Source: Owenia fusiformis (Eukaryota > Annelida > Polychaeta > Sabellida > Oweniidae). Taken from it: DNA of 64,000 nt. The position numbers and the translations under genes were made by a program. The stretch covers positions 10,393,598-10,457,597 of the forward strand of contig CAIIXF020000001.1 in NCBI GenBank assembly GCA_903813345.2. Reading direction: 5' to 3'. The notes under the pieces are model-generated. The model made no database searches. It was not told the DNA's origin and saw only the letters and a list, made by a program, of their open reading frames with translations. Each line of letters opens with the position of its first letter. Position 1 is the first letter of the stretch. Below are positions 20,201 to 64,000 of the stretch, piece after piece.

Positions 20201-23200
20201 TATTATTATTTATCAAATATTATTATTATTTATTTAAAAGATTCATAAAAAGTGTTTTTTGAAAATAATGTATAATGTGTTTTACAACACATAGTGCTGT
20301 ATTTGATCATCTAAATTGTATAACTTTTGATGTTAAATGGCAGGAAATTCAAATATGTAAAAAAATTAAAAAACAAGAGGAACAACCTTTTTTTCTAAAG
20401 TCAACTTTTTTGAAGAAATGACTCACAATAATATTTGGATGCTTAATAAACAATAATGTCAAACTTGGCGTGGGGCCTTTAAGGCTAAGAATCTTATTTT
20501 TTATACCCAGTGGAAAACATTTTTTGACTTGTATACTCAGAATTTAATTATTATATAAGCCAATGCGTAAAATATAATATAAGGTATGTGATCATTTTGG
20601 ATGTTTCTGGCTAAGAGGCTTTTTCTTAGGAGGTAGTATGATGTAAGCACTGATTATCTACCTACCTAGTTTAGTCTTGACATACTCCTCCACTTTTCTA
20701 GCAAGATCTTGTCTTTTTGCTTCCCTCAAGGCTTTCCATAACATCTCTGCCAGTGGTGCACCAGGTTGTTGCTTCTTCTTCCACTTTGTGAGCATTTCAT
20801 AGCCCCATGTACTGGCATCCAGTTGATGTGTCTTTTGGACACTGACCAGTTCATCATCTGTGAAACCAAGGTGGATCCCAATTGATTTAAACTGCTTTCC
20901 CATCTGTTGACCAATTTCTAGAAGTAGGGCAGTGTGGTACCTATCTGCAATAAAAGTGTTTTTGTCACACAGTGTTTTGGACTTCATGAAAAAGAATAAG
21001 GCTGATACTAAGATAAACTGATGTAATACATTTCAGGTATAGCTGGTTTCCAAAAGTCAACAGTTGTTGATAACTTTGTAAAAGGGGGGGGGGGGCAATT
21101 GGTGATTTGAAAGTGAGAGAATTTTTATCCCCCGAAACATTTAAATAGAGGTTATATCATCTTGGATGAATACAGAATACTCTAATTAAAAAAGGAAATT
21201 ATCCTATATCAAGAGACAATAGAACTGAGTGATGTAAAAAGGTAAAAAAGAAATGAAATCTTCAGTACTGTCTCACTTGTATTAGACTGTTCACATTCTG
21301 TCACCATCCCAGCTAGGTCATTTCTATTTGCTTTTTCTAGTGCTTTGCATAATTTCTCTGCCAGTGGTGCATCAGATTCTTGCTCCTTCTTCCACTTTGT
21401 GAGCATTTCATAGCCCCATGTACTGGCATCCAGTTGATGTGTCTTTTGGATGTTCTTCAGTTCATCATCTGTGAAACTAAGGTGGAGCCCAATTGCAGTA
21501 AACTCGTTTCCCATTTGTGGACCAATTTTCAGAAACAAATGTGTATAATACTCATCGGTATCTATCTGGTCACCAGTTCTTACATCACTTTCCATTGTAA
21601 GAGATCTTTTTGCTTGTCTAGTTTATGTTGTACATTGTCGAGCCACTTCAGTAATAGAATATGTTACTCCATCTCATTGATTGAGTGATTACTTTATTGG
21701 TATAGTCCTCACCATCATGTTAATTCTGTCAAGAGAATGGTCATATTTGTTATCTTAATTGCATAGATGTTACTGTTCATATTTTTACTTACTAAGTATG
21801 CATCTCAAATCAAAAGAAATTAATGATACTGACAGTACCTCAGAGAGTAAATGACAGCCATCACACTGTATGAAAATTAGCGTAACCCAGCAAAGTGAGC
21901 AATTTGGATGGAATTCAGAGAGAGATTCAGTAAAGGATTGGTATCGATATGGAGAATTAAATTCAACAAAGTTTTTCTCTTAAACCAATTATTGAAAACA
22001 TTCTGTAAAAAACATGGTCCTTTATGTAATGTTGATTGATTGACAACAATTTAATGCGAAAATAATTTATATATATTTTATATAACTGTTTTTGTTAACA
22101 TTGTTTGTTTTTAGTGCAATTTATTGTTTTTTGTTCCTTTTTACCATTTCTTGAGAATGAAATAAAATATCTTTCCGAAGCTTGATAGGACAAAATAGCA
22201 TATACAACATTTTCTTAGACTTCCCAAAATTATAGTTGTACAAAGGAAATTTTGGTTGATTTAACAAAAAGTATTCAAAAAATTAAAACAAAAACCAACG
22301 AAATAGATAAAAACTAAGATAAACCTTTAATTTCATTAACGAGATACTTTTTTTAAATCAACCAAACTTTCCTTTGTATAATTACAAAATTGAGAGACAT
22401 AAACATGTTGTGTTTATGTCATTTTGTTTCAAGGAGGTTTGGATAGATGTTTCATTTCATTTTGAACATATGAACAATATAGAGAACAATATAGAGAAAA
22501 GTATATATATCTACAGGGTGTCAAATAAGTCTGTTCTCCCCCCTTAACTTTTTTATCTTTAAATTTATCATACTTTCCCATATATCATTTTGAAGCTCAT
22601 TGAAAATGCTGATCACCCTCAAAAAATCAAACATAAACTCCTCCTAATAAAATTGCTACAATGTTTCTTGTAAGGTTGTAGTTGACCTTTGATTACGTCA
22701 AAACAAGTAAAATTACCAGGTAATAGTGAATGAAAAGTGAAAAGTTGATACTGCAGTGACAATGCCAACATTGGGTGATTTCGATGTTTCCCAATATCGT
22801 TACAGAGTAAAATTTGTTACATTCAGGGGAGCCTTTGAAGCAGGGGAATCTTTCATCACAAAATAGTTGATAACACCTAGAATCAAACGTTCTGAATGAT
22901 TTATACGGGATCTTATCCTCGTAGAACTGAGGCCATCTGGGCTGCTGGGGGAGACATGAAGACTATTAAAAAAGTGAAATATGGACATTACTAAAAATAC
23001 TCTAAAAAATTTGGAATTTAACCAATCACTCTGAGATTTGGTGTGTGATCAGCAAATTAAATTCCCTTTAAGATGATATATACCAACCCTATGTTATCTC
23101 TGAATTAAAAAAGTTAAGGGGGGAGAACAGACTTATTTGACACCCTGTATTTCAAATTATATTGTTACCATTCAAAAGATGGCCATTAAATTGACAATGT

Positions 23201-42000: not shown

Positions 42001-45000
42001 TGCCTAGAGACACAGTAGCTCTGTTCGAGTAAGACTTTTTAAGATGGCGGCTGAATTTCAAAATGGCCCTCATTTTTCGTAAACAACGTCATCTTTAATA
42101 ACTCAAGAACCAGAGTGAGCGGATTTGGTTCAAATTTTGTATGCTGATACCTAGGGACACAATCATTTTGTAGCTCTATTCGAGAAAAAATCGGCGTCGG
42201 TGAATTTCAAAATGAACCCTATTTTTCAAACTCAAATGCCAATTGACGGGTTTGGTTTAAATTTTATATGTTGATGCCTAGGGAAAAATAAATCTGCTCA
42301 AGGTAAAACTTTCAAGATGATGGTTAAATTTCTAAATGGCTGCCATTTTTCTTTAAAAACGTAATCTTTGATAACTCAAATAATACTGGATGGATTTGGT
42401 TCAAAATCTATATGATGATGCCTAGGGACAAAGGAAGTCTGTCCGAGAAGAAATTTTCAAGATGACAGCTGGATTAAAAATAGCCGCGATTTTTAGTAGA
42501 AGTATGTTTTATTTGATAAATCAAACACCAGAGGATGGATTTGATTCAAATTTTATATGCTGATGCTTAGAAATTTTGTTCGGTGAGATTTGCTACTCCG
42601 TGGAGTTGCTGTTTTTCTAGTTTATTTAGATTCGTGATATTTTATAAACCAAGCCGTGTTATGTTCAATTTTATTCAAATATGTGTAGGTGATACCTAAT
42701 AGAATAAAATAGTTGTATTTATGTTGTTCATTCTATAGCAATGCAATCACGGGGTACCATCGAATAATTTTGGCAACGTACCGGAGAACGACATTTTACT
42801 AAGAAATGGCAATAATTTAGCACAATATATTTTTTAACTAGAGTTCTACTTTGATTTTGACAAAAGTAAGTATTCCATGCAATGGCTATTTCATTCATGA
42901 GTTTGTAGGAATTCTGTTGGAACCCAGTTCTGATCAAGTACGAAGTTATTGAAATCGGCGCAGTCGGACTTTACTCCGAAAGATGGTTTTTCGATTATAA
43001 CTTTTTACAACATTTAAGTATAGACTTATGAAAAAAGTACAGAATAGTCCTTATACTATTGAATAATTCTGTTATTTCTGATTCACACGACTCTGATTTG
43101 TTTAATTAAAAAAAAAGTTTTAAAAATATTATTTAGGAACGTAACCGGAGCTGGGAACGTAACCGGAGCAGATCAGTTGAATTATATAATTTAAAAAAAT
43201 AAAACATATGATTTAAAGCATATATATTAATAAATACGCATTCGAACAATCCCGTATGTTTTTAAATTAGTATATGTGCTTTAAATATATTTTAATTTTT
43301 TTGATTAAATAATTCAACTGATCTGCTCCGGTTACGTTCCCAGCTCCGGTTACGTTCCTAAGTAATATTTTTAAAACTTTTTTTTTAATTAAACAAATCA
43401 GAGTCGTGTGAATCAGAAATAACAGAATTATTCAAAAGATTAAGGACTATTCTGTACTTTTTTCAAAAGTCTATTCTTAAATGTTGTGAAAAGTTATAAT
43501 CGAAAAACCATCTTTCGGAGTAAAGTCCGTCTGCGCCGATTTCAATAACTTCTTACTTGATCAGAACTGGGTTCCAACAGAATTCCTACAAACTCATGAA
43601 TGAAATAGTTATTGCATGGAATACTTACTTTTGTCAAAATCAAAATAGAACTCTAGTTAAAAAATATATTGTGCTAAATTATTGCCATTTCTTAGTAAAA
43701 TGTCGTTCTCCGGTACGTTGCCAAAATTATTCGATGGTACCCCGTGGCAATAGGCATTAAATAGGCATTTATCTTTCACTTTCAAAAAATGTGAAGAAAT
43801 AATGAAAAGATGGGCAGGTAGATGTTTAACCATGTTTGGTAAAATTACTCTCGTAAAATCACTAATGCTCTCACAATTTGGATACATTATGCAAAGTTTT
43901 ATTTTGTCAGAGAAGATTATTAAACGGATAAATTGTTTGTTTTTTAAATACATCTGGTCAGGTAACAAAGGTGTGTATAAAGAAGAAGATGTAAAAGGTG
44001 TAGTAGAATGTATTAAAAGAAATATATTGATACAGGGCAATGCAAAGGGAGGTCTAAATATGATAGATGTGAAACATTTTCAAGATGCTTTTGCAATTAA
44101 ATGGATTAAACTTCTACTTGATAGAAACAAAGCAAACTGGAAAAAACTCCCAACCTATCTTATTGACAAAATTTGTCAAGATTTTTCTATTTTACTGTCT
44201 AATGTTGAATTTAATCAGGTAAAAGGACTAGAAAGAATTAAGTCCTCATTTTGGACAGATGTGTTGAAAACATGGATTATGTATAATTCAGTTAAAAGTA
44301 GTCCATATATATCAAATAACAAAGACTTGTTGTACAAGAACAATCCTTTATATTTTGATAACTGGCATCAAAAAGGTGTGTATAAAATAAATGATGTATG
44401 TAATGTAAACAATGAACTATTAAGCTATGATCAAATTGGGCAAAAAGTAGGTTTTAATGGCCAGACTTTTCTTCAATACAATTTACTTAAAGGAGTTTTT
44501 AACAAGTTAGACAGAATCAAGATTGAGACATTAAAAAACAGTGAAAGCAAAATATATTTTAATTGTATTCCTGTACAGAAAATCAATGTGCAATCAATAA
44601 GAAAAGGGTTTGTAAAAAACAGTTTAACAGAATCCAAATCAGAAGAGTATTGGTCTGAGCAGTTTGCTCAAACGGATTTCTCAGATTTTTATAAGATTTT
44701 GTTTAAATGTAACATTAGCAATAATGTTAAAGAATTTATATTTAAATGTTTTAATGGAGCCATATGGACAGAAAAAAAATTACCAAAAATTCAGAAGTCA
44801 AATGGAATTTGTAAAATATGCAATGTTGAAGCAGAAAGTCATAAACACTTATTTGTCAATTGTACGAATGCAAAGGAATATGTAAATACTCAAAATTTAA
44901 AGTTTTCTGAACAAGAAATTTTATTTTATAGCAATGAAGGAGATTTTGAGAGCAAATGCCATAGAAACCAGCTAGTGTTTAAACACAAGTTTGAAATTTG

Positions 45001-48000
45001 GAAAATTAGAAATAGTAAAATCTATAACCAATAAGTTCTGTATTCCTGTATAAGTACCAATGTAACCATTGTATATTATGTAAAAATTGTATAAATGTTG
45101 TTTCAATGTTAATAAATTAATTTAAAAAAAAAAAAAAAAATCTTTCACTTTTAGACCAAATAACAATTAATGGTGCAAGAATTCGCTTGGTGATACCATT
45201 TGCCATCCAAGTCTAATCATGATACAAAAAAGTGTAATATTTGGTTTCTGTCTGAGCCCTTTTTAAGATACTGCTTTTATAAACATTATTGATACTATAA
45301 TCAATTCATCCACTTTAAAGAATGAAATAAACCATTAAATTAACAATAACAACAAGCGAATATATCACTTATTATCACGTATATTTATAAGGCTGTGTAT
45401 CTTTATTTGAAAATCAAAGCCAATTCCAATTATGGCTACCTAAAATGTAATATAGAAGGTCACGTGACAAAAAGGCACCCCTTGTCTATTTCAATTGATT
45501 TTTATGAATATTTTATACATTTTCGGTAGGACGGTAATATTTTTTATTTCACTTCAAACAATTTCTCTCTAGCTCATTATATCTGTCAATATCAAGAAAA
45601 TTACCGAGATGCCAGAAGGTAGTTACCAGATTCACCGTCAGATATCAGATATCATGACAGGTATATTGGAAAGTTCCCTAAACTTGAATATTCATCAGTT
45701 CTAGTGGATCAATTATCATATTACCCTTCTGTCCAGTAAAACAAAATAATCTCTGCCCAATAAAAGAAAATACATTTTACTTTTTGTGATTTTATAACAT
45801 GGGGTCTATGGGGAATCTCCCCGACCTAGAAGTCACATTTTCAAAGAACAATGTTTGAACTGTTGAAACTACATTTGAGTTGTACTTTCACATACGTTGA
45901 TTTCAAATATGATATCACCTTCACTGAATTTTAAATATTCTTACACGCATCTAGTCTATTGACAGGGTTCGTACACACCTGGAAATGTCAGGGAAATTGA
46001 TTTATTTTTCCAGGTGCTGGAAATGTCAGGGAATTTTAAAATTGGGTCAAAAAGGGCCAAAAATGTCAGGGAATTTTGAAACAGTAGATGTGTCAGGGAA
46101 ATGTCAGGGAATTTTGTATCAATGTTGAAAGAATAATGTTCCAGCAAAATACATTTTAGGGCTATGACAGGATATAAGTGAAATCCAAAATCATCTAGTT
46201 GTTTCCACAAATAGCAAATCTTTTCATTAGGGTTGGTTGAATAACATTAGATCTGGTATTGTCTATTTGTAAGAACAGTGTGAACATTACACTGAAACTG
46301 AACAATAAAAATAATGTATAGATGATTTAATACAATTATGCTTTTTTGTTATGTAGTAAGCTTAGTCTTAGTTAATTACTGGTATATATTTCATGGTTTG
46401 ATGAGGGGTTAATCTGAGGGGGGGGTGGGAGGTGAAAAACAAAAAAAAATCTGGGAGCTCTTTACAATGTAAAATTGTATTTATATTAAGAAGCTGTCTG
46501 TTCGACAGTCCGATCGTACGTCAGTCTTTTCAACTTTCAGGGGCTTTGCCAATTTTGAAAACCTTAGCACATGGAAGTAGGCAACCAAAATGTGTGTGGG
46601 GTACTATTAACAGTTTTTGAATTTGGTCCAAATTTTTCTTCTTGTAAAGATGAACCCAGCATTTTACTTTGGCTCAAATTTTGTATGATGTAGCCTTAGG
46701 GACAAAGGACCTGCTCAAGAAGAAATATTCAAGATGGTCTCTGAATTCAAAATTGCCACCATTTTTTAATGAAATTTTTGATAATTTACAGAAACTTGAT
46801 TCCTGATAACACAAAATACTGATTATTTGATTTGGTATCATAGGCCTGAGCCTTTTCGTGATCTGGTGATGCTAATTGAGAAGGAACTTCTAATATGGTG
46901 TCAATTGTTTTGGTGTAATTTTCCCAAAAGGGAGAAGACAATAGTAATGCCAGGTTATTGCTATCATATAATGTTCACAATGATAGTATTCAATAGAAAT
47001 ATGTTTCATTAGGTGGGAATTGCCCCTCAAGTGAGTTGCTATTTTTCTAGTAGGATTTAGATCAAAATTTTAAAGTTTCAGTTGTCATTTGGATTCATTA
47101 CAAAACATTAACAAATTATAGTTTGAAATGCTTAGAATGCACCATATACAATTGTCAATTTTGAAAAATTTCCGGGGGTGAACCCCCGTACCCCCCCCCC
47201 CCCCTTCTGGTTTTCCTTCGCTCGCAGTGATGCAAACCCCAAAAGATGCACCTCCTTGTTGACTATGCCCCTGTACATGTATGTTTACCTTTGGCCTTAT
47301 GCAATGTAAAATATGTAATATTAAAAAATAAAATGTATCAGGAATAAATTGGTGAATAAGACTGCCTGTACAAGTAATTAAGTCATGAGAAATGGTACTG
47401 AAGTAGAAACCCCAAATGTTTCATAATAAGTCTTTTTGTCTTGAATAATACAGTTGTTTGAGACTTTTTAGAGGGCGCGCGAGGAAAATTAGATCTGGAA
47501 ATTTCCTTTTTTGCCTGGAAATGTCAGGGAATTGTCAGGGAAATTCATTTTGAAAAAGGTGTACGAACCCTGATTGAGCAGCAACGTTTGAAAATAAATC
47601 AGATTCAGCATTTAGCTCCGTCATGTCCGTTGTAAATATAGAATTTACAAACTTAAAAACTCGGGCATAAGGAATAAAATTGCATTGTGAGGTTACCGAG
47701 GATATGAGCCCTATTCAAACTTTACAGAACTTTATTTCATATCACTTCGATGTCTTGTTATCATTAGGTCTGGTTGCGGTATGATGGTTTACCGCAAGGC
47801 ATGGTTCCTACACGTGCTTATGTTTAGAGACATAATCGTGTTGCGCACTTCAGTCTCCTTTGGCATTGGGGTCATGTGATGCGTAACAGGGACACGATCG
47901 TGTCGTGCATCGATCTCGAGCCTTCTGGATGCGTTGGGATTATGTAATGGTAATACAGGCTGTAATAGGGACATGATCGTATCGTGTATTAATCTCTCGA

Positions 48001-57258: not shown

Positions 57259-58013
57259 AAAGCTTCATACCTGCAAATGATGGATAAATTCCTACCAAAT
57301 CAAACGAATGTTTTCACGGATCGCTATGTTTGTGATCCAAGGAGGATGGACTCCCAGAATGCAACATCAGTAAACCTTTTTTACTCGTGACAGGTTTCAA
57401 AATGGTGGAACGGCATTTTGAAAGTTGGCACGTGTCATGTTGCATTCTAGGAGTCAATCCTCCTTGCAGTGTAATCAGGCTCCAAAATCACCTCAACATT
57501 TGAAGAGTCTGCATTAACATGTGAATATCACTTCACATTTTCAAGGTCCTATTTGTCATTATGGACACAAATTCCACTATATTTGTACGTTCCAGGACGG
57601 AGAAAATAGAGCACTCAATTCACTGAAGTAGGAATTTATGACATACATGACAGAATGTCTTTTTCATAGTGTTAGTCATTATTTATGTTCACCACTTTAA
57701 TAACAAGGAATCATTTTTGATTACAAAAAATCGAGTCGAGTTCTCTATGCCCCACACATAAGGTACATGTAATAAATCTAGGGTGCCTCTTAATGTATAA
57801 TATTTGGTGTTCATGCAACACACATTGTGATTTATTTCATAAGAATATGAATACAGCTGTACTGTCTTTACATAAAGTGTGTATAAGAGGTTATATCACT
57901 ATGACTTGAAATATGCCTGAGTTCTCCCAATATAGGCCGACCTTGCGAGGCTCTATATTTAGGCAAGAACGAAGAGGCATATATTACGTCTTAGTGACAT
58001 AATTGAATTATTA
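57259..58013. other. Upstream of AGBL5: hairpin, otherwise no gene seen
   Basis: Contains an inverted pair, AAGGAGGATGGACTCCCAGA near 57340 mirrored near 57445-57465, spacing about 100 bp, that is a small foldback of about 130 bp. Nothing else recognisable. A 5' noncoding AGBL5 exon could be in or upstream of this region; a TTAATTCCAG acceptor-like site is at about 58532-58541. Confidence 0.4.
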
Positions 58014-58241
58014 CATACCTTTATTCCAATGCCTACTTTGTATCAGTGACGTCATACTGTACATCTGTGTACGAGTAGAATTTGAACGAAATGAAACATG
58101 ATGTTGTGATATTGTCATGTTTATCAAAGAATCTTATATCAAAATGAGGTAAGGGGACTATATCGATGAATCGGGCAATATCGATGGATTTAGCCCGCCA
58201 ACTTTCCCATTGACTTCCATACAAATGCTTCGCTAGGTATG
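58014..58241. mobile_element. TA-flanked MITE (228 bp), copy 1
   Basis: Ends CATACCT and AGGTATG with TA outside both. Shares blocks with copy 2 at 63347-63537: ACATCTGTGT, AGTAGAATTTGA, GAAATGAAACATGA, GGGCAATAT.G and TTGACTTCCATACAAATGCT. TA target duplication suggests Tc1/mariner mobilisation. Confidence 0.7.
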
Positions 58242-58672
58242 TAATACTCGAGATACATGTATTTAGACCAAAGAGCGGCTACTATATCAACAAATAAATA
58301 CTGCTGGGCTAGGCATAAACCTTAAGGTATTTACTACTGATCTGAGGTCTATATTACATGAAAACTCACCAAAATTTTTTGAATATTTGTTATGGCCCGC
58401 CATGACAATGTCCCCCAATTATGACATCACATATTACTCATGTTACCAGATGTTGAAATATTGACTTCGCTCACAGTTTATAGAAGGCGTGAATACAGTC
58501 ATGTTTGAATTCTGTTTATGTCACATCTGTTTTAATTCCAGCTCCTTTCAATGTTCAGTTGAATGTAAATGGAAAGCATTACAATTAACATTGAAAAATA
58601 AGCAGGACACATAGATACTAGCTGACACTGCCATTGTATGAAGATGATGAAAATGATGGCATTGTAAACAAG

Positions 58673-61600
58673 ATGGAAATCAGATGTGGAGGGCTACTTT
58701 TTTCTTCCAAGTTTGACTCTGGAAACCTAGCTAGAGTTGAAAAGGTCACAAGAGATGATGACGATTCAGAAGGTAACAAATCAGCGTTTTTCTAGGGATA
58801 TTACGTCATAGGCCCCTACCCTATTTTGCTTTACTTGAACAGCTAAAATATATACCTCAGAGATACCTAATCCTACATGTTTACTGTACAAATCGGCTGA
58901 ATCGATATAATCGAATCGATTCAATTGATACATATTGGTCAAATATTTACAAAGATTGCATTTTTGTTTGCTCCTTTATAATTATTATTGTATCTTATTT
59001 AAGGTGCTGTAACATTCATCAGTGGTTCAGATGTGAAGTGTGACTATGAATTCAATGCTTGGACAAACCCAGATTGTGGAGGAACACCCTTCGAGAATGG
59101 AAACAGGTTTGTACATGTATCTGAAAGCCGAAAAAATATTTGAAGAGAGTATTGGGAAATTTACCAAATATTTGGTTCAGGGTGTAATTTCACAGCCCTT
59201 TGTTAGATCGAAAACCTTACTTCCTCTTATGCTGTCCTCTATTATCTATATCCATTTACAGTAAAAAGATATTTATGTACATATAAAAGTAGCCAACATC
59301 AGTTTTAGATTTTGGCCTTGAAAATTACTTCCAATATGTCCAGAATAAGATTTTTAATCTGAGAGCTGATAGCATCAAAACTGTAAAATAACTGTATAAT
59401 AGTGAGAGGGTAATGTGGCTGCCTTGTTGTTAACATTCAGTATAATTTTCATTCACTATTTCAGGTCCTGGTTCTACTTTGGAGTTAAAGGTGCATCTGG
59501 GGGTAAGGTGATAAAGATCAACATAATGAACATGAACAAACAGGGTAAACTGTACAATCAGGGACATGCCCCTCTAGTGAAGACTGTACCTGGCAAAACA
59601 AGATGGGAGAGGATACGAGATAAGCCTTCTTGGGAGGTACAGTAGAGCTCTTATTAAAACATGCATACAAAGAGGCAATTACAGTAAAACCTGTCATAAT
59701 GAAAACCTCTCCTTAGTAAACACCTGTCTCTAGTGGACACCCTTCCTACGCACATACTCCACTGACTTCTGTATAAATTTTCCTCTCTGTAGTGAATACA
59801 TACCAACACTGAGCATTTTTTCTCAGCTAAATAATTTCAATATACTCAGGTTTACTTTACATGTAATTTTTACCATATCAAAAATCAAAAGTCAATTTCA
59901 CAAGTAGTAATGTTAATCAAAGTTATCACAATCAATTGGTGATAACTGTATGGACCGATAATCTAACATAGCAATTAATACTGTATTTATTCACATAGCT
60001 TTCTTATTTTATTACATTTCAGATGGTTGATGGTCAGTTTATATTGACGTTCACTCATCGTTTTCTTGAGTTCAGAGGTGCTACTACTTACTTTGCCTTC
60101 TGTTTCCCACATTCCTACAATGAGGCACAGGAGAAGATGAATGTCTTGGATTCAAAATTTGATCACTGCAAAAATTTGACTCCAAAAAGGTACTTGATTC
60201 AGATAGAGGTGTTCTTCCTTAACTTAGTACATGTACATGTAGGTACTTTGAAATTTCTAGTACATGCATTCTTTTGATATTGTGCCTGTACATCTCTACA
60301 TCCTAGGACTGGTATTTAACTTAATGATAGATAATAACTTAAAGACCCCATGCAAAGTTTGAAGATATTGTTTTTAATAATGATTCAAATCTCTTATGAC
60401 TTCTTGTTGTCATTTATGGTTGTTTTCTAACTTAATAATAGATAATGACTTAAAGGCCCCATGCAAAGTTTGAAAACATATTTTCATTATAATAATGATT
60501 CATGTATCATTTGTTGTGAATTAAAACCACATACAAACACTGTACGAGGTGAGATGTCATATCATGGTAAAATTATTTTCAGGAATCATTAATGATTTTA
60601 ACTTCTCGTACTTGTTGCTTTATCTGTCATTCCAGCCCCCCAGACAGTATTTACTACCACAGAGAGCTACTATGTAAATCCCTAGACAATCTCCGTGTAG
60701 ATCTGCTCACTATTTCCTCCTGTCATGGTTTGACAGACGAGGAGGAACCAAGATTTGACTCAAAGTTATTTCCAGATACTGATACGCCAAGATGTAAAAT
60801 ATTCAAGAATAAAAGGGTATGTTGACAAGGACATGTTCCATGCATTATTTTCTGAGATTGACTCAATGTCTTTATAAATCAAAATGATGTCATTGATGTT
60901 TATCTTAAACTTGATCATTGAATGTGTTTGACTTCCTTTGAAAATTTAAATTGAGGGTACTTAAAAGTAAATGGCAAATACAGTGTACATGTATGTTCAA
61001 AACGAGGGTATTTTAAAGGCAGAATCTGATCTATATGGGGTGACAAAATTACAAGCAACATGTATAATTGACCTACCAATCTATCCCTTACAATATCAAA
61101 TACAATATCTCCCAAAAGATTCAAAAAGTGCAAAAATGAGTGAAAAAATGTTTAAATTCTTCCATATAATAAGAATGGTAACCATTCTTATAGAAAAATG
61201 ATACATTGTTGTAAAAATCTTTAGTTTTCCTGGAATAAAGTATGCACTTTTGTGATTTTTAGAAAATAGACATGACAAGGAATGACACGAGCCAAGAATA
61301 TTCTGAAATTGAAACAATTTTTTGTTTAGCCTGCTCGCTATATCTGATTCTCTCTTTAAAGTAGATGACAAAAGTATCTTGTAGTAACATATATTCCAGA
61401 TTCATTGAATATAAAGGAATTTTTGTTCATTGAGATCTGCTACTTCATGGAGTTTCTATTTTCTATTTTCTATGTTTTCTATGTTAAATGTATTTCAGGT
61501 ATACTTCCTTAGCTGTAGAGTTCACCCTGGAGAGACCCCAGGTCAGTTTGTCTACAATGGATTCCTCGACTTCATTCTTAGGGAACACGACCCTAGAGCC

Positions 61601-63947
61601 ATTCAACTACGGAGACAATTCCTCTTCAAGTTAGTCCCCCTGTTAAATCCAGATGGCGTCTACAGAGGCCATTATAGAACAGATTCCAGAGGGGTAAATC
61701 TAAACCGGATGTACCTCGATCCAGACTTCAGTATATATCCAACTATTTATGCCGCAAAAAGTATAATGGTTTATCATCATGTGCATAATAGAAAAGATAA
61801 ATCGCATAATCCAGTATGTGCCAATAGAAATGTAAACAATTCTGCAGCAGCTAGGAAATCACATTCCAAAAGCGAGAACCAAGAAAGACCAAGCCTGCAG
61901 GACCCAACACTAACCACACAATCAGATACGATAACTATAGCTCCAACCATGGAATATAGAGACAATGGGACCACAGGAGTGTCCTCGAGGGATAAAACAT
62001 ACACATATGTATACAATGATATTTTAAAGAACTCGGAAGAACAAAACAAAGAAATAGATAGAACCAAACAGACTGGTTCAGTAATCCAAAGTGCCAAACT
62101 CAATGAAACCCAAAGCATTATCAAAAACTTCTCCGATATGGCTATTTCCAATCAGATACCAACTGCTGCTACTGATTTAAAAGAACAAACTAATGCTATT
62201 GTAAGTGAAGATACATTTAGTGATGATGATGATGCTACTGAGCATCTTGGAAATGAGGGATCTGAAGATGACGAAGATAATGCTGCACCAGTGTCAACAG
62301 GTAATTTGGTACCACAGAGCTGTCCTCAAAAGTGCTCATACATTTTCAATTCATTTTCAGTCTTTCTTAATTATCTGCTCTAAATATACTTAAAAGGAAA
62401 ACCTCACTTTATATCACTTCTTTAAGATTTCAATACTTGTATTGTGAAATTAATTGAATATTTTTTTGTAGCTTATGGTGCTATACCATGTTGCATCTTT
62501 TGTATTAAATACATTATGTAAAATAATTAACTTAAAATATGACAAAGGCAATACCCTTTTCATTCGTTTGACTTCGCTTCTCAGAGTAGAGCTTCGTCTT
62601 CACTCTTTCAGTTTTCCTGGGCTGTCACAGGCACCAATCTTTGGGGCGGGGCTGCTAAACTGTAATATAGTCTATACTAGGCAGAGTGTAGTTCACAACT
62701 AGATTCTGTGTGCAGGGTACAAAGGCACATGTCCTAGTTCTAGATAATATGATTGCCCTCCCCTTTGTTGGACCATTTGTCTTACCTACAGTATATACAG
62801 TAGCTGCATATAAAGTTCATATTTCTCCAATTTTCTAGGGAATGTGATTGCCTCCTGTTGTTTTAAGACCCCTAGATTTACCCCCAATATATCCAATAAC
62901 TGGTTATATACATATTTCTCATATCCTCTAGGTAATGTGTTTGCTCCTCACCTCTGTGACCCTAAACTTCTTAAGATACCTCCTGATGAGAGTGGGATTG
63001 CATTCTATGTAGACCTACATGGACATGCATCTAAGAGGGGCTGCTTCATTTATGGCAACCACTTCACTGATGAGGAATCTCAGGTCAGTACTAAGAAACA
63101 AACCATGTTTTTTAGAATCAATGTATTTGAAAATATATGTTGTACCTGTAAAGTTTTGAAGTCAAGATTTGAAGAAACTCTAAATGACCACCACTTTTGT
63201 GACAATTATGGATTGATTTATCAACAATTTGTTTGTTATTGGAAGAATGTACAATTGTGGATACAATAATAATATTTCCACGTTATTTTTCCACTAGGAT
63301 GCCAGTAAAGTAAACCCGACATTGTAAAAACATAACTGATGTATTACATACCTTTATTCCCATGGCTACGTTGTTTGTTGGATCAATGATGTCACACATC
63401 TGTGTGCTAGTAGAATTTGATGGAAATGAAACATGACATCATGATATTGCCACGGTTATTAAAGAAAACGGGCAATATTGGTGGATATAGCCCATTTACT
63501 TTCTCATTGACTTCCATACAAATGCTCCCTAGGTATGTAATAATGTTTCACATTGCAGATTGAAAACATGTTATATCCAAAGTTGATCTCCACAAATACA
63601 GCACACTTTGATTTCACTGGCTGTAACTTCACAGAGAAGAACATGTATACAAAAGATCGCAAATCTGGTACATCAAAAGAAGGAAGTGGGAGGGTCGGCA
63701 TGTACAAATCTATAGGCATTTTACATAGGTTTGTAGCATTGCATATTGTTTATGTTTTACATTTTGTGTACTTCTAGGTTGAAAATATGCTCTACCCCAA
63801 GCTTGTGTCTATCAATACTGCACATTTTGATTTTACCGGGTCTCTGTTCAGTCAAAAAAATATGTACACAAAGGATAAGAGGGATGGGTTATCCAAGGAA
63901 GGGAGTGGGAGAGTTGGGATGTACAAATCAATAGGAATTTTACACAG
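58673..63947 (+). CDS. AGBL5: AGBL5 (CCP5): cytosolic tubulin carboxypeptidase, 3' end outside window
   Basis: M14 metallocarboxypeptidase that removes the branch-point glutamate from polyglutamylated tubulin. Exons: 58673-58772, 59004-59106, 59465-59636, 60023-60189, 60636-60816, 61499-62300, 62932-63083, then 63559-63728 or 63778-63947; all GT-AG and in phase. The N terminus [20 protein letters not shown] starts like vertebrate CCP5. Landmarks: [25 protein letters not shown], the CCP-specific N-domain [20 protein letters not shown], zinc ligands H250 and E253 in [31 protein letters not shown] with LNR, and the third ligand H538 in [13 protein letters not shown] roughly 170-residue acidic, Ser/Thr-rich insert in exon 6 separates the two halves of the catalytic domain; vertebrates have a shorter one. 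The catalytic Glu motif and the tail lie beyond the right edge. Confidence 0.95.
59682..59860. mobile_element. Pogo-like MITE in AGBL5 intron 3
   Basis: Second copy of the element at 34079-34260: TA then CAGTAAAACCTGTC, CACCTGTCTCTAGTGGACA, CACATACTCCACTGAC and a right end with CTCAGGTTTACTTTA. Right border approximate. Confidence 0.6.
63347..63537. mobile_element. TA-flanked MITE (191 bp), copy 2, abutting AGBL5 exon 8a
   Basis: Ends CATACCT and AGGTATG flanked by TA (63345-63346, 63538-63539). Its right end is 21 bp from the first base of AGBL5 exon 8a, so the branch point of that exon probably lies within or at the border of the element. Copy 1 is at 58014-58241. Confidence 0.7.
63559..63728 (+). 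CDS. AGBL5: AGBL5 exon 8a (alternative exon)
   Basis: 170 nt, phase 0 in and 2 out, acceptor CATTGCAG, donor GTTTGT. Encodes [11 protein letters not shown] to YKSIGILH (56 full codons), the segment between the third zinc ligand and the catalytic Glu. It keeps the [14 protein letters not shown] sequence closest to vertebrate CCP5 (GCNFSEKNMY). Confidence 0.9.
63778..63947 (+). CDS. AGBL5: AGBL5 exon 8b (alternative exon)
   Basis: 170 nt, the same phases as 8a, acceptor CTTCTAG, donor GTACAG. Encodes [11 protein letters not shown] to YKSIGILH, 45 of 56 residues identical to 8a. The differences cluster in [10 protein letters not shown] and [11 protein letters not shown]. The intron between 8a and 8b is only 49 nt. 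The frame is fully open, with no sign of decay. Confidence 0.9.
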
Positions 63948-64000
63948 GTACAGAACCAGTAAATGACATCGATAGTTAATTTTATTTATGGTAACTAACT

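Follow-up and report, generated by a model that had tools for sequence, protein, structure and literature searches.

In the annelid Owenia fusiformis, the AGBL5 gene probably contains two homologous coding exons, 8a and 8b, that duplicated long ago and are mutually exclusive in splicing, so that a single gene would yield two isoforms of the carboxypeptidase CCP5. The pair lies within the 64,000-nt stretch of DNA that we analysed, referred to here as the window. The exons are 170 nt each, stand in tandem 49 nt apart, are both entered in phase 0 and left in phase 2, and are identical at 45 of 56 residues and 121 of 170 nucleotides; coordinates, lengths, phases, residue identity and gap were all correct in the original prediction. 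Mutually exclusive pairs are recognised as adjacent, homologous internal exons of similar length and the same phase, and 8a and 8b have each of these properties. A protein search of the whole genome, with E values accepted up to 10, found the segment in two places (5.6e-33 and 1.0e-25) and in no third; the pair is therefore neither a chance resemblance nor an echo of the assembly.

Domains, motifs and the nearest solved relative all agree in pointing to AGBL5/CCP5, an M14 cytosolic carboxypeptidase, as the identity of the gene. It lies on the plus strand with its start codon at 58673, and the window ends inside it; traced further along the same contig, it reaches a stop codon about 5.5 kb past the window end. 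Exon ends were set by eye at GT-AG sites, after which the frames join along the entire gene. The boundaries up to exon 10 are supported by conserved protein; toward the C-terminus they are placed with less confidence. The spliced protein matches PF18027 (CCP N-terminal domain) and then PF00246 (Peptidase_M14), both over the cut-off, and it contains HPGE, DLHGH and YTLECNYN; we take HPGE to be the zinc-binding motif, the His of DLHGH to be the third zinc ligand and the Glu of YTLE to be catalytic. The PF00246 match covers residues 198-332 only, and the exon-8 region alone (149 aa, 8b form) matched no Pfam model. Because the Pfam matches stop short of this region, its assignment rests on CCP5 chains. 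The solved relatives were two CCP5 sequences (E 1.4e-72 and 2e-72) found in 10 structure entries, such as 8v3m and 8v3q, and the sole other hit below 1 was an unrelated protein at 0.36; a profile search for other CCP structures returned nothing but CCP5 below E 0.29. In the alignment the DLHGH His (window codon 63018-63020) falls at residue 434 of chain 8v3q and the YTLE Glu at residue 516. The exon 8 segment corresponds to residues 456-511, and so lies between the third zinc ligand and the catalytic Glu, as had been predicted. The solved chains have Ala at residue 516, where the worm protein has Glu, in keeping with a catalytic-Glu mutant. Profile scans for relatives in viral and prokaryote contig collections gave 28 and 36 pattern stretches with none confirmed, as expected for an animal gene.

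Table 1. Features of the AGBL5 locus around the exon pair, in window coordinates unless stated otherwise.
Feature	Position	Strand	Basis
AGBL5 coding exon 1, from ATG	58673..58772	+	spliced translation; PF18027 on spliced protein
AGBL5 coding exon 2	59004..59106	+	spliced translation
AGBL5 coding exon 3	59465..59636	+	spliced translation
AGBL5 coding exon 4	60023..60189	+	spliced translation
AGBL5 coding exon 5	60636..60816	+	spliced translation
AGBL5 coding exon 6, with HPGE and Peptidase_M14 match	61499..62300	+	spliced translation, profile match
AGBL5 coding exon 7, with DLHGH; strong donor CAGgtcagt	62932..63083	+	spliced translation, site scores
Interspersed repeat copy, ending 16-18 nt before exon 8a	63330..63540		
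Exon 8a (IENMLYPKL...GCNFTEK...DRKSGTS...GILH)	63559..63728	+	genome protein search, pair alignment, spliced translation
49-nt intron between 8a and 8b; YTNAY motifs, A at +24/+31 from donor	63729..63777	+	
Exon 8b (VENMLYPKL...GSLFSQK...DKRDGLS...GILH)	63778..63947	+	genome protein search, pair alignment, spliced translation
Start of 2125-nt intron toward AGBL5 exon 9	63948..64000	+	
AGBL5 exon 9, with catalytic Glu (SYTLECNYN)	G000:C1:10459670-10459805 (begins at 66073 in extended window numbering)	+	

We then asked what each combination of the two exons does to the reading frame. With 8a alone or 8b alone, the spliced frame stays open into exon 9. With both together the codon at 63932-63934 becomes a stop, with 13 nt of exon 8b still to follow, and with neither a stop is reached at 66139, 66 nt into exon 9, because 170 is not a multiple of 3; the claim that inclusion or omission of both breaks the frame thus stands. 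Several exon junctions follow the stop in either case, and mRNAs with both exons or neither would presumably decay. Retention of the 49-nt intron stops translation at the intron end (ORF 63544-63777). We therefore propose that exon 7 would be joined to either 8a or 8b and then to exon 9, giving two forms of CCP5 that share the zinc site and the catalytic Glu but not the stretch immediately preceding that Glu.

The intron between the exons suggests how the choice could be enforced. The only motifs in it that fit the branch-point consensus YTNAY have their A at +24 and +31, counted from the donor of 8a. That donor and the likely 8b branch point would then lie too near each other for simultaneous use, so that 8a would rarely be joined to 8b. 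One report on OGDH (PMC7969005) puts the steric limit between donor and branch point at about 50 nt, and a survey of human exons applies such a limit (PMC5740500). The intron is also unusually short, since all other coding introns of AGBL5 are at least 231 nt. Introns elsewhere in the genome, estimated roughly for two protein families, have a median of 386 nt (81 estimates) and a minimum of 83 nt, for which the raw gap is 44 nt, so that one intron near 49 nt is possible. These values were taken from exon-level matches of M14 (all 93 rows) and myosin (80 of 92 rows, giving 31 estimates, with 12 tandem exon copies left out), and merged matches were screened in 18 hand-picked rows and all 93 M14 rows; three M14 matches contain about 30 extra nt, room for a very short hidden intron. 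Introns of 49 nt are readily spliced in some animals. The exclusive choice could also be enforced by competing RNA structures of the docking/selector type. Among inverted repeats of at least 12 nt, the only pair in 63084-64000 consists of the two ends of the repeat element next to exon 8a, and the stretch downstream has eight pairs, most of them within a minisatellite and none touching 8a or 8b. This minisatellite lies in the intron that separates 8b from exon 9 (L001:987-2559; 64389-65961 in extended window numbering) and consists of 31.5 repeats of a 50-nt unit. The unit has the acceptor-like sequences ttcttacag and ctgttccag, and the array ends about 110 nt before the real exon 9 acceptor.

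Both exons have long been under selection at the protein level, as the original prediction held and as can now be quantified from saturated fourfold sites, a low dN and similar numbers of private changes. Identical bases number 47, 48 and 24 of 56 at the first, second and third codon positions, and where 8a and 8b encode the same residue, 25 of 45 codons differ. At fourfold third positions 12 of 15 differ and 3 are identical, a Jukes-Cantor divergence with a 95% lower bound of 0.88; dN is 0.159 (NG86), and dS was not computable. Synonymous sites have not been levelled, as they would have been by gene conversion. When we simulated an unconstrained copy at d 0.45, a stop arose in 88% of 20000 runs, and not one of the 20000 stayed stop-free with 45 of 56 residues kept; at d 0.2 only 0.2% did so. 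Compared with human CCP5, 8a has four private changes (positions 1, 25, 35 and 36) and 8b has five (10, 22, 23, 26 and 34), which gives no difference in rate between them. Nine changes are common to 8a and 8b and two positions differ in all three sequences; the common changes suggest either that the duplication is younger than the divergence from vertebrates or that the copies were partially homogenised early on. Exclusive use of the exons, as first proposed, is thus well supported by the anatomy of the pair and by selection on both copies, and from these we infer that it operates in vivo.

The splice sites of the two exons differ in quality. Under a hand-written consensus matrix, the donors reach 3.4 for 8a and 5.6 for 8b, and the acceptors 6.5 and 7.3; elsewhere in the gene donors span 1.7-9.9 and acceptors 1.6-8.6, ranges that include all four values. 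The 8a donor ranks only eighth among the GT sites of 63084-63990, below two within exon 8a itself at 63693 and 63685 (5.4 and 5.1). The best acceptor-like score in that interval, 7.6, belongs to the AG at 63298, far inside intron 7, and exceeds those of both real acceptors; the matrix therefore discriminates poorly. No YTNAY motif lies 10-48 nt upstream of 8a, while two precede 8b; among the 11 other internal exons, one lacks the motif at 10-48 nt and three at 15-45 nt. The original description of good splice sites for both exons accordingly holds for 8b, and for 8a insofar as its sites fall within the gene's range, but 8a is the weaker at both ends.

Next to exon 8a lies a copy of an interspersed repeat, with at least 42 further genomic matches among those listed for a 601-base query, several of them longer on the left; all the listed matches lie on contigs numbered C1-C12. 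Compared with a consensus built from 10 other copies, it differs at 14 of 190 sites (7.4%). Since the repeat ends 16-18 nt from 8a, any 8a branch point farther off would be repeat-derived. The repeat also holds an acceptor-like site at 63533 (score 5.4), use of which adds 26 nt and shifts the frame. We had considered reading 63344-63540 as a TA-flanked terminal-inverted-repeat element that parted a CTGAT branch point from 8a, and dropped this because ACATAACTGATG is itself repeat sequence, preceding the same point in several copies. A second copy of the repeat lies at about 57990-58244, and the two copies near AGBL5 share the right end GGTATGTAA.

Given this adjoining repeat with its acceptor-like site, 8a might see little use in this individual. 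The main rival to our reading goes further and holds that only 8b is now used, 8a having been functional over most of its past and then disabled by insertion of the repeat against its acceptor. The weaker scores of 8a, its lack of a YTNAY at 10-48 nt and the alternative site at 63533 would all fit, and so would the youth of the repeat: in 59% of simulations an unconstrained copy acquires no stop at d 0.074, so that a recent loss need not have left stops and the intact frame of 8a is no proof of use since the repeat arrived. For such use, only the lack of excess private changes argues, with four in 8a against five in 8b where about nine would be expected had 8a drifted freely since then. The 8a acceptor moreover keeps its AG and is the third best in 63084-63990. 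We consider the loss of 8a unlikely, though it is the alternative that we take most seriously.

Alternatively, the pair could serve as an off switch, in which double inclusion makes an early-stop mRNA that tunes the level of CCP5. The stop at 63932, with several exon junctions after it, is of the kind that this would call for. Such a switch would have no need, however, to keep the protein sequence of both copies through saturated synonymous divergence, and the 49-nt intron speaks against efficient joining of 8a to 8b; we regard the switch as very improbable. The idea that the second copy arose through an assembly or haplotype error, or through retroposition of a fragment, has nothing but general possibility in its favour and is contradicted, to the point of negligible probability, by 49 differing bases in 170, a single occurrence of each copy in the genome, and separate splice sites and flanks.

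If 8a and 8b are used as alternatives, what would the two CCP5 isoforms do differently? The exon 8 segment of 8v3q is identical to 8a at 41 of 56 residues and to 8b at 40 of 56. Human CCP5 has one form of this segment, 8a-like at C477/N478/E481 and 8b-like at S480/R490/D491. The exons differ at segment positions 1, 10, 12, 22, 23, 25, 26, 34, 35, 36 and 38. The differences had been described as concentrated in a short loop; they do cluster, but modestly: positions 22-38, a span of 17 residues, hold 8 of the 11 (scan p 0.025, the scan length being picked post hoc). Against the nine shared changes the clustering gives a Fisher p of 0.07. They flank an invariant KNMY and precede an invariant SKEGSGRV. 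In M14 enzymes the corresponding segment precedes the substrate-pocket strand, and altered substrate handling between the isoforms is therefore plausible. More speculatively, they may differ in substrate preference or rate and be used in different cells, for example in multiciliated bands, neurons or sperm. The original prediction likewise supposed that they might favour different tubulin tails or proteins.

From its family membership, the worm enzyme is predicted to remove branch-point glutamates from tubulin, the activity reported for CCP5 in the accessible text of PMC5269731. One could imagine two deglutamylases from one gene: the 8a form would stay near vertebrate CCP5 and act on branch glutamates, the 8b form, with S/L/Q in place of C477/N478/E481, would prefer another chain length, linkage or non-tubulin substrate, and a cell-type splicing programme would choose between them. 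We offer this tentatively and think it rather doubtful.

Pairs of homologous exons kept mutually exclusive by frame and by steric distance are already a known phenomenon. As far as the accessible part of the report goes, exons 4a and 4b of vertebrate OGDH form such a pair, enforced by branch points near the donor (PMC7969005). Like the worm pair, they stem from an ancient exon duplication in an enzyme with a restricted intervening intron, and donor and branch point are less than about 50 nt apart, 25-41 nt in human OGDH and a predicted 24-31 nt in worm AGBL5; the intron itself is 118-131 nt in birds and mammals, compared with 49 nt here (PMC7969005). Besides the different gene and animal, the cases differ in that branch points and RNA isoforms were mapped for OGDH, according to the same text, and are predicted from sequence for AGBL5. 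Among 629 human clusters of mutually exclusive exons, the survey gives potential steric interference for 57 (9%) and lengths not divisible by three for 377 (60%) (PMC5740500). The worm pair would combine both locks, although the human clusters were validated by RNA.

For AGBL5 itself, PMC5269731 describes mouse CCP5 splice variants (DQ867034-DQ867036) that differ at exon 4 and the C-terminus. These are variants of the same gene with differing activity on tubulin, one with an extra N-terminal segment having none, but they differ elsewhere than at worm exon 8 (PMC5269731). Further unannotated mouse Agbl5 variants are mentioned in the available part of another report (PMC10953240), and AGBL5 is not named in the main text of two surveys of exclusive or tandem exons in human, one of them PMC5740500. 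The mouse variants DQ867034-DQ867036 and these main texts agree with the earlier statement that no such pair is known in vertebrate AGBL5. Within the accessible parts of the open-licence literature on AGBL5/CCP5 splicing, carboxypeptidase exon duplication, glutamylation, tandem or exclusive exons, annelids and Owenia, we found no AGBL5 exon pair of this sort. Mutations in human AGBL5 are associated with retinitis pigmentosa in the sections available of two reports (PMC9513239, PMC12418683).

Owenia probably uses mutually exclusive splicing elsewhere too. At a myosin heavy chain locus (L015; G000:C9:37986009-37994334, minus strand) one motor exon, covering profile positions of about 18-84, is matched 12 times in tandem. 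Stretches between possible splice sites there are most often 157 nt long (10 times), again not a multiple of 3. The locus has the look of a large mutually exclusive exon cluster, probably of a muscle-type myosin. The muscle myosin gene of another annelid, Capitella, has seven clusters of mutually exclusive exons according to the accessible part of PMC3912159, and the Owenia locus is therefore a likely positive control for such splicing. Three matches to the annelid erythrocruorin linker, at 38.1, 30.7 and 28.4 bits and thus close above the cut-off of 27, fit an annelid genome; a search of the assembly for the COX1 family gave no match. Two features elsewhere in the window were seen in passing. 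Neighbouring minus-strand ORFs at 20661-21032 and 21212-21622, which we take to be death-domain-like, have strongly similar stretches and form another tandem duplication, and a plus-strand ORF of 426 residues (43754-45031) presumably resembles the end of a LINE reverse transcriptase.

The saturated synonymous divergence of 8a and 8b predicts that a pair of this type will be present in other annelids. As the exons differ at 11 of 56 residues in a catalytic segment, they would provide a ready-made swap experiment on the specificity of CCP5. If the two isoforms are indeed made, the tubulin code would be editable by splicing inside the catalytic domain of a deglutamylase.
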